The notes under the pieces are model-generated. The model saw nothing but the letters and a program-made list of their open reading frames with translations, did no database searches and was not told the origin of the DNA. Both the position numbers and the translations under genes were made by a program. Positions 31,321 to 32,173 of a DNA stretch of 52,068 bases are shown in pieces; position 1 is the first letter of the stretch, and every line of letters begins with the position of its first letter. This stretch comes from Sphingomonadales bacterium (GTDB lineage: Bacteria; Pseudomonadota; Alphaproteobacteria; Sphingomonadales; Sphingomonadaceae), in assembly GCA_028289885.1 (NCBI GenBank), contig JAQGKX010000020.1, positions 1 to 52,068 of the forward strand, read 5' to 3'.

Positions 31321-31848
31321 ATGATAGCGTTTCGCAAAGCACTGGCACTTGCGCCGTTCATGATCGCGGGTTGCGTGGGAAAACCCGTTACCCCGCCGTC
31401 GGCCCGGCCGCCCATATACCGGCCCGCGCCGCCTGTCCCCTTGGCCCCCCCGCCAGTGGCCGAATGGGAAAATGGCCTGGTGAGTCCGGGAAGTTGGACC
31501 TATACGAAGGACGCCCGCGGCGGTCTGGCGCTGTTCGGCACGGGAGGCACCGACGCCGCGCTCAGTATCAGGTGCGACGTATCGACTCGGCGCATCTATA
31601 TCTCTCGACCCGGCACCGTTGCGGCCCGAATGACATTGCGCGCAACGACGGGTGCGCGCGCCTATGATGCAAAGCCGACCGGCGGGGCGGTGCCCTATGT
31701 CGCCGCCGAACTGGCGCCAACCGACCCGCAGCTCGATGCGCTGGCGTTCAGTCGCGGCCGGTTTCTCGTTGGAATACCGGGGACGGCCGACATTGTCGTG
31801 CCGAGCTGGCCCGAAGTGGCGCGCGTGATTGAGGATTGCCGGGGCTAA
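31321..31848 (+). CDS. Putative lipoprotein, unknown function
   Basis: A 175-residue protein with a lipoprotein signal: basic start, hydrophobic stretch and lipobox FMIAGC, giving a predicted acylated Cys18. A Pro-rich tether follows (RPPIYRPAPPVPLAPPPVAE), then a globular domain with WTYTKDARGGLALFGTGGTD, ALSIRCDVSTRRIYISRPGT, and a C-terminal VIEDCRG. It contains a few Cys residues that could pair in the periplasm. The globular part resembles small sphingomonad envelope proteins of no known role. It is likely monocistronic; a weak T-rich terminator follows. Confidence 0.75.
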   Translation: MIAFRKALALAPFMIAGCVGKPVTPPSARPPIYRPAPPVPLAPPPVAEWENGLVSPGSWTYTKDARGGLALFGTGGTDAALSIRCDVSTRRIYISRPGTVAARMTLRATTGARAYDAKPTGGAVPYVAAELAPTDPQLDALAFSRGRFLVGIPGTADIVVPSWPEVARVIEDCRG

Positions 31849-31879: not shown

Positions 31880-31907
31880 CTCGAATTATGACGAGTATTA
31901 TTTTTTT
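31880..31907 (+). terminator. Weak candidate terminator after the lipoprotein gene
   Basis: A short CTCG/CGAG stem with an 8-base loop is followed by TATTA and seven T residues. The stem is only four pairs, so this may be merely a T-rich stretch. Its position just after the lipoprotein stop is the main support. Confidence 0.3.
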
Positions 31908-31924
31908 GCACAAGACTTGATCGC

Positions 31925-31943
31925 TGACTCATGATGACTCATG
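31925..31943. promoter_or_regulatory. Tandem TGACTCATG repeats (possible operator)
   Basis: Two exact copies of TGACTCATG separated by a single A, 59 bases upstream of the small ORF at 32002. The 10-base period would put both copies on one face of the helix, as expected for a dimeric regulator or activator site. No binding protein is suggested by the sequence, and chance remains possible. Confidence 0.35.
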
Positions 31944-32001
31944 TTCCATCTGTGTCCAACGCAGGGCACGGCTTTTCAACATAGCGAAAGGAGGTGATCC
32001 G

Positions 32002-32064
32002 ATGTCTCATGGTTCAGCACAGGGGTCGGGTAGTTTCGTTCGGGGGATGCGCAGCCAGGGTTAA
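32002..32064 (+). CDS. Candidate 20-residue small protein or leader peptide
   Basis: A short ORF (MSHGSAQGSGSFVRGMRSQG) too small for ordinary gene callers. It is preceded one base upstream by AAAGGAGGTGATCC (31987-32000), complementary over 14 bases to the standard 3' end of bacterial 16S rRNA. The match reaches closer to the start codon than a normal Shine-Dalgarno, which is odd. A stable hairpin (GCAGCCAG/CTGGCTGC, 32051-32076) covers the stop codon and a strong terminator follows at 32127. The peptide is Gly/Ser/Arg rich with no membrane segment. It may be a real small protein, a regulatory leader, or part of a non-coding RNA that happens to bind ribosomes. Confidence 0.45.
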   Translation: MSHGSAQGSGSFVRGMRSQG

Positions 32065-32126
32065 TCCACTGGCTGCCCATGGTCTCCCGGGCTTGAGATA
32101 TGTCTCCGGCCGCTGACCATGTTAGG

Positions 32127-32159
32127 GGTTGCCGGGCCTGCGGGTCCGGCAACCTTTTT
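32127..32159 (+). terminator. Strong intrinsic terminator of the small transcription unit
   Basis: GGTTGCCGGGCC pairs with GGTCCGGCAACC across the four-base loop TGCG (12 pairs, one G-T), followed directly by five T residues. The T-run is only on the plus-strand 3' side, so it ends transcripts coming from the 32002 ORF, not from the convergent sugar kinase gene. The 325-base stretch between the lipoprotein stop (31848) and the kinase (32174) thus holds one short terminated transcription unit. Confidence 0.88.
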
Positions 32160-32173
32160 CATTTGTGGGCCGT

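Follow-up and report, generated by a model that had tools for sequence, protein, structure and literature searches.

A predicted small RNA of Sphingomonadaceae related to CC2171, with an extended Shine-Dalgarno sequence and a short reading frame of fixed length

CC2171 is said to be a Caulobacter small RNA, reported by Landt et al. 2008. Dual-function small RNAs that carry short open reading frames (ORFs) also exist, such as those of the SgrS type. As far as the available text of each source goes, CC2171 (RF01867) stands in the table of improved structures of the Rfam 15 paper and also appears in a Mesorhizobium small-RNA prediction. No function for CC2171 was found in the literature searched; the original 2008 paper lay outside that search. 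The string CC2171 does not occur in the accessible parts of three papers on Caulobacter small RNAs (PMC12559287, PMC11005374, PMC5988900). A coding map of Caulobacter reports that two earlier predicted noncoding RNAs are translated, and the text available does not name them (PMC4117421). Translation of CC2171 therefore cannot be called unreported on the basis of that text. A literature search with the letters of the element described here returned nothing relevant by title.

Another related system is the extended Shine-Dalgarno (SD) initiation of Staphylococcus aureus. In this system, according to the portion of the paper available, the tail of the 16S rRNA pairs past the core SD (PMC13009471).

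The RNA considered here lies in a window of 52,068 nucleotides, the whole stretch of DNA that was analysed, from a Sphingomonadales bacterium. Its features are collected in Table 1. The initial annotation could not name a family for it. On the evidence of covariance searches, this RNA is a divergent homologue, or branch, of the alphaproteobacterial CC2171 RNA (RF01867). The match covers the whole model, with an E-value of 6.8e-7 in a search of 281 nt and of 1.8e-6 in the genome, which points to homology over the full length. Its 38.3 bits do not reach the Rfam gathering score of 75, and the window type and the canonical type occur together in at least seven genomes. It is therefore treated as a divergent branch and not as a member by Rfam’s own cut-off.

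Table 1. Positions in the window of the promoter elements, helices and other features of the RNA gene.
Feature	Position	Strand	Remarks
CAAGACTTG, palindrome CAAGnCTTG	31911..31919	+	overlaps the -35; TGANTCA starts 15 nt further on
Predicted -35, TTGATC	31917..31922	+	17-nt spacer to the -10; sequence reading
Two GANTC sites (CcrM methylation sequence)	31926-31930, 31936-31940	+	second site abuts the -10
Predicted -10, CATGTT	31940..31945	+	placed by spacing and conservation; predicted start near 31952
5' hairpin, GTGTCC-AACGCA-GGGCAC	31952..31969	+	predicted 5' end; 13 leaders compared
Full-length RF01867 (CC2171) match	31978..32155	+	38.3 bits, model 1-159
Extended Shine-Dalgarno	31986..32000	+	complementary over 15 nt to the 3' tail of 16S
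20-codon ORF, MSHGSAQGSGSFVRGMRSQG	32002..32064	+	TAA stop; 18 codons in most of 90 loci
P1 5' strand, CATGGTTCAGC	32008..32018	+	codons 3-6; pairs with 32112-32121
P2 5' strand, GGTCGG	32024..32029	+	pairs with 32106-32111
P3 5' strand	32038..32048	+	within the ORF; pairs with 32082-32092
Apical 8-bp hairpin over the stop codon	32051..32076	+	GCAGCCAG 32051-32058 / CTGGCTGC 32069-32076
P3 3' strand	32082..32092	+	alignment
P2 3' strand, CCGGCC	32106..32111	+	alignment, pairing counts
P1 3' strand, GCTGACCATG	32112..32121	+	family and cross-lineage pairing
Intrinsic terminator	32127..32159	+	12-bp stem 32127-32138/32143-32154, one G-U, then TTTTT

Scores against RF01867 vary widely. Five of 18 loci tested against the model reach the gathering score. 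At E <= 0.001 it matches 181 of the 199 genomes of the family, four of them over the cut-off. In a class sample it matches 22 of 115 genomes, five of which exceed the cut-off; Caulobacter vibrioides was the only one of 14 control genomes to give a match. Eight family genomes (G010, G011, G084, G091, G110, G144, G156 and G171) have, in addition to the window type, an extra match scoring 63-78 bits. This extra copy was read as the canonical MSHC-type in seven of the eight; the one in G010 was not located by the script.

The two types share the full-length covariance match, the register of helix P1, the terminator and the character of a standalone small gene, and in most copies read the SD is followed by [AG]TGTCTCAT. 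They differ in several respects. Helix P1 is CATGGT/ACCATG in the window type and CATTGTCA/TGACAATG in canonical CC2171. The start codon is ATG, at the same position, in all 90 window-type loci read, whereas canonical CC2171 uses GTG or ATG (GTG in 21 and ATG in 19 of 41 RF01867 loci, with one not located by the script). The ORF has 18-20 codons in the window type, compared with 21-25 in 49 of 58 canonical ORFs; 57 of these 58 have 19-26, in a set prefiltered for 15-40 codons and for ORFs beginning with both [AG]TG and TCTCAT[TC]G. Finally, the window type has a promoter with GANTC sites and a subgroup with a long leader. A CC2171-like copy closely precedes the SRP RNA in each of three genomes that belong to a single genus (L106, L107, L111), and another copy (L113) lies near tmRNA.

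The window type is widespread in its family. By BLAST, 31900-32165 has matches in 175 of the 199 genomes of the family, from 86 of its 96 genera, and most of these genomes hold a single match. Another genome of the same genus (G154) holds a locus that is 95% identical. At least ten of the 175 (G020, G038, G040, G044, G101, G106, G124, G134, G167 and G190) have only a canonical MSHC/MSHR-type RF01867 copy, so the window type is present in about 165 genomes at most. From the 175 genomes, 90 loci were read: 30 from BLAST, including the window’s own, and 60 taken mainly one per genus. Alignments A1 and A2 hold 66 and 63 of the 90; the loci omitted were similar to others, carried long inserts or, as with L052, gave no hit for the 3' motif.

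A covariance model, R1, built from 63 sequences, was used for more distant searches. In 20 of the 24 BLAST-negative family genomes, it gained a match in six, and the four readable ones are canonical. In a sample of the order, R1 matches 32 of 118 genomes, all 32 within the window’s family. Of 385 genomes sampled from the class, 43 have an R1 match: five belong to the family, and the other 38, from outside it, score about 25-35 bits. Many of the fetched matches have the same layout with other letters in P1, and some (L108, L117) have only the SD and the start. Conservation in relatives, on which the initial annotation let its reading stand or fall, is found for the ORF, the SD and the hairpins.

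The ribosome-binding site is nearly perfect. By direct reading of the letters, AAAGGAGGTGATCC occupies 31987-32000 (+) and is followed by one G and by ATG at 32002. The exact 14-mer occurs once in the window, where shuffled sequences average 0.21 occurrences even with two mismatches, and once in the whole assembly of 3,078,751 bases. It had been described as a 14-base anti-SD complement ending one base before an ATG, which is correct, and the pairing in fact extends to 15 nt (GAAAGGAGGTGATCC), since the sequence of the 16S tail in two related genomes is GCGGCTGGATCACCTCCTTTCTAAGGAT. The tail was not found in the window’s own assembly, and pairing was checked against these two genomes instead; the search for the tail with a short pattern (the region of GGATCACC) matched three of 16 genomes.

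The 18 nt preceding the ATG are identical in 80 of the 90 loci. Nine loci vary within the stretch complementary to 16S, and five of these retain pairing through G-U while four break it. The computed duplex with the 16S tail has about -28 kcal/mol, against -10 for AAGGAGG. The computed cost of opening the RNA from the SD to +15 is 10.0 kcal/mol in the window and has a median of 14.3 in 89 loci; in the computed ensemble the SD core is partly paired, with a median unpaired value of 0.22. The initial annotation held the site to be closer to the start than a productive one needs to be. This is true only of the extended pairing, in which the extra letters TGATCC reach the start codon. GGAGG is separated from ATG by a normal 7 nt, and the idea of an SD too near the start to be productive was rejected on this ground. 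A 16S remnant or antisense was rejected as well, the match being only 14-15 nt long, on a single strand, with a conserved ORF behind it. The likeness to the S. aureus system lies in 16S-tail pairing beyond the core SD, as described in the available text (PMC13009471); the window RNA differs in that 15 nt pair, up to one base before the start, in one RNA.

The same SD and start pattern is found in at least 119 stretches in genomes of 84,980 species. Among the 80 matches listed, the titles that name a group say Alphaproteobacteria (a few say Proteobacteria), with the exception of L266, from SAR92. There are also 11 viral stretches of mixed types. A single superfamily for all genes with SD and TGTCT was not adopted, the Rhodobacteraceae (MSRVILERGVGTVRG...) and Bradyrhizobium (MSYLKRCHLAGIAR) types having no clear P1. 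Loci of the Rhodobacteraceae type (L193, L198, L213, L224, L227, L238, L243, L259) have the same SD, a GTGTCT start and an 18-residue ORF resembling MSRVILERGVGTVRG, and possibly represent another RNA or peptide family. In Bradyrhizobium and similar bacteria (L142, L226, L239, L242, L260), the same SD precedes a 14-residue ORF like MSYLKRCHLAGIAR, which by eye is strongly conserved as a peptide. Two loci (L122, and L253, which is from Azospirillum) have the same SD and an MSHGA start with a protein of 56-59 residues.

Behind the SD, the ORF and the 3' arm of the RNA are predicted to form a long rod. The fold of 31960-32160 has a z-score of -5.55 against 200 shuffles, none of which was as good. 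The 8-bp hairpin first noticed over the stop codon is real as a prediction, and forms the tip of the longer rod P1-P2-P3; this apical part is variable among relatives. The 12-bp terminator noted alongside it was likewise recovered both by reading the sequence and by prediction, and in the family alignment its stem is kept with changes on both sides. A further hairpin at the predicted 5' end has six pairs, four of them with changes on both sides, in 13 of 20 leaders of one subgroup. The other seven leaders, mostly longer, were dropped by eye since the hairpin was not evident in them, a choice which favours the hairpin.

Within the family, P1 and P2 are paired in 98.3% of cells, against 18-42% in slid registers. 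Covariation of P1 within the family is not beyond shuffles (64 of 500 reach the observed value), and P1 hardly varies there. Evidence across lineages comes from 176 loci, in which the 3' strand was picked by its ATG, the following hairpin and T’s, blind to the tested pair; a further four of the 180 had no such 3' site. The pair after CAT is G-C in 115, T-A in 38, T-G in nine, C-G in seven and unpaired in seven. This suggests that P1, which joins codons 3-6 to the 3' arm, is changing compensatorily between lineages. A permutation on distinct P1 combinations is weak: complete pairing is seen in seven of the 25, where shuffles average 4.1 and 107 of 2000 reach the observed value. In a cross-lineage swap test, nine of 75 5' octamers lie at or below 0.05, and many of the fetched loci with SD and TGTCT have no P1. 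A P1 helix from the start region to the 3' arm before the terminator, as in members of RF01867, is thus found, with the weak permutation results noted. An alternative 3' hairpin (GCGGC/GCCGC) acting as an attenuator switch was considered and dropped; its register differs between clades and its support was by eye.

The promoter of the window type has a composite structure. In promoters aligned on TGANTCA, CTTG occupies the fixed -35 place in 53 of 54. The predicted -35 was absent from a stricter consensus scan, which gave one site only, on the minus strand. The full arrangement CAAGnCTTG-15-TGANTCA occurs in 46 of 90 loci and CTTG-15-TGANTCA in 53; in a control window further upstream, neither CAAGnCTTG alone nor CTTG-15-TGANTCA was found in any of the 90. 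Of the 90 loci, 75 have GANTC between -115 and -25 of the SD; three windows lying farther upstream yield 7, 13 and 14. For TGANTCA the corresponding counts are 53 against 0, 0 and 2. Control words in the same windows give 10 against 20, 15 and 22 (GTNAC) and 9 against 13, 10 and 4 (CTNAG). With a spacer of 14-16, the composite motif occurs exactly once per genome in eight of 30 genomes, always 60-122 nt upstream of the SD of this RNA; the other 22 have no exact match, and the exact motif was found at no other gene of the 30 genomes. In one clade (a subset of L033-L087) the 5' leader is longer, and GANTC lies about 80 instead of 50 nt before the SD. The composite promoter (31911-31945 in the window; L323-L330) may have a regulator of its own, to judge by the palindrome that lies over the -35.

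In Caulobacter, GANTC sites are found at 96 cell-cycle-regulated start sites, according to the available text of PMC4287350. The GcrA family was detected in 14 of 16 genomes, including the window’s own, by a search whose control also gave a signal in Sulfolobus acidocaldarius. GANTC is conserved within the core promoter here, as in promoters under CcrM and GcrA, by which synthesis of the RNA is probably timed.

The comparison of loci therefore supports the borders of the gene, the promoter, the 5' hairpin of a subgroup, the SD, the start and stop of the ORF, the rod between ORF and 3' arm, and the terminator. The 20-codon ORF announced behind the SD is present (32002-32064, TAA). Among 87 distinct ORFs, the in-frame stop follows after 18 codons in 71, 19 in 12, 20 in three and 15 in one. 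Thus 86 of the 87 stop at 18-20 codons, with TAA, TAG and TGA all in use, and stops in the two other frames are scattered. Conserved start codons and in-frame stops of this kind are what a small-protein gene would have.

The residues in between behave differently. Codons 2-5 are near-invariant as nucleotides where P1 is formed, and the residues change when P1 changes. For codons 7-17 of the window type, the fraction of synonymous changes amounts to 0.123 in frame 0 and to 0.19 and 0.26 in the other frames; in the canonical set it is 0.078 against 0.124 and 0.094. The synonymous excess over the other frames that purifying selection on amino acids would leave in frame 0 was not found. Synonymous change is below column shuffles in all three frames (z -5.7, -4.7 and -8.9), and therefore this control does not single out frame 0. 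Length and stops are conserved and residues are not preserved; hence the ORF appears to be fixed in its length and little or not at all in the peptide that it encodes.

Since the SD and the short ORF are conserved and the peptide is not, the pattern suggests ribosomes acting on the RNA itself. The most likely mechanism is that of a regulatory RNA engaged by ribosomes, in which initiation or translation would open the rod. As a whole, the reading of the locus as a standalone small-RNA gene of the CC2171 branch whose rod is opened in cis by translation is the favoured one, held with a confidence slightly short of even. In this model, a 30S subunit would be able to load, by virtue of the strong SD, while codons 3-6 of the RNA are shut in P1. 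The 30S initiation complex covers a region that includes +7. As P1 starts at nucleotide +7, within this footprint, initiation and P1 should exclude each other. Initiation and a short run of translation would then melt the 5' arm and release the 3' arm, while without a ribosome the rod would stay closed. The product of consequence would be the ribosome-bound or opened RNA, serving as a switch or as a sink for free 30S, rather than the peptide. RNAs of the SgrS type resemble this one in being structured small RNAs with a ribosome-binding site and a short ORF. The window RNA differs from them in two ways: the amino acids that it encodes are not preserved, and one arm of the rod is formed by the ORF itself.

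A small-protein gene is an alternative, in which the peptide of 18-26 residues (MSHGSA..., MSHC...TWIVAS...) is the product and the fold only tunes translation. The strong SD at normal spacing and the conserved start and stop fit this model, and no other product is known for the locus. Canonical peptides, viewed by eye, have a loose TWIVAS-like stretch, whose varying distance from the start implies indels that keep the frame. With stops penalised, the mean BLOSUM62 score of nonsynonymous changes is better in frame 0 (-0.89 against -1.49 and -1.38; in the canonical set, -1.06 against -1.84 and -1.7). Without stops, the values are -1.22 against -1.41 and -1.26, and frame 0 lies near its shuffles (z 1.5, compared with -7.1 in frame 1 and 2.2 in frame 2). 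Frame 0 has fewer stop codons than its shuffles (z -3.0), and so has frame 2 (z -3.9). Against a peptide product stand the lack of synonymous excess in codons 7-17, which have fewer such changes than the other frames, and codons 2-5, whose residues follow P1. The third-codon-position test suggested by the initial annotation thus had a negative outcome, so that a functional peptide is unlikely in the window branch, even though start, length and stop are conserved. Overall, a small protein is an improbable explanation.

A second alternative is a trans-acting, base-pairing small RNA of the Hfq type, for which the SD and ORF would be secondary or a decoy for CCUCC-type RNAs. CC2171 is filed by Rfam as a small RNA, and a conserved ACTTCC in the 3' arm is largely unpaired in the consensus. 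Small RNAs with CCUCCUCCC loops are described for Rhizobiales in the available text of PMC3927594. This model leaves unexplained the alternation of GTG and ATG at the start and three kinds of in-frame stop at one place, and is likewise unlikely.

The gene neighbourhood bears on a third alternative, a leader peptide with an attenuator for a downstream gene. A short ORF, pairing and a terminator are present as this model requires, and many loci of one clade have next to the RNA a same-strand downstream gene (community 2, 36 of 90 loci), which we take from its sequence to be a branched-chain aminotransferase. Across the family, no conserved downstream gene on the same strand was found, and in the window the next gene, of the ROK family (PF00480), is on the opposite strand. 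For these two reasons the leader reading is not supported; the ORF is also free of runs of a regulatory amino acid. A leader is accordingly very unlikely, and the observation that no larger gene follows the terminator on the strand of the RNA is borne out. Upstream on the same strand lies a lipoprotein-like gene of 175 residues (31321-31848), which has no Pfam match; a community of ORFs related to it spans 59 of the 90 loci. Chance or an assembly artefact has next to no probability: the assembly is broken into 211 contigs, with a completeness of 83.99%, but conservation across the family refutes this explanation, with BLAST matches in 175 of 199 genomes, among them the 95% identical locus of G154.

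Of the initial annotation, which offered a small protein, a leader or an RNA that titrates ribosomes, the conserved ORF, SD and hairpins stand, while the leader reading is not supported and a functional peptide is unlikely. Both of these readings are weaker than that of an RNA engaged by ribosomes, which is compatible with all observations.

With this analysis, RNAs of the CC2171 type are known from almost all of a bacterial family, mostly at scores that Rfam would not accept. A ribosome-binding site is common to the canonical and the divergent members, as is an ORF that is kept in length and not in sequence, and the divergent branch is tied to a GANTC promoter. An orphan RNA thereby becomes a testable case of translation serving as a signal on an RNA. 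In its broadest form, which is rather unlikely, the proposal is that of an RNA found throughout the Alphaproteobacteria that would be bound and opened by the ribosome. It would act as a 30S trap or a switch sensing ribosome availability, with an SD close to the maximum, a gated rod, an ORF that works independently of its peptide and, in the window’s family, a promoter under CcrM methylation.
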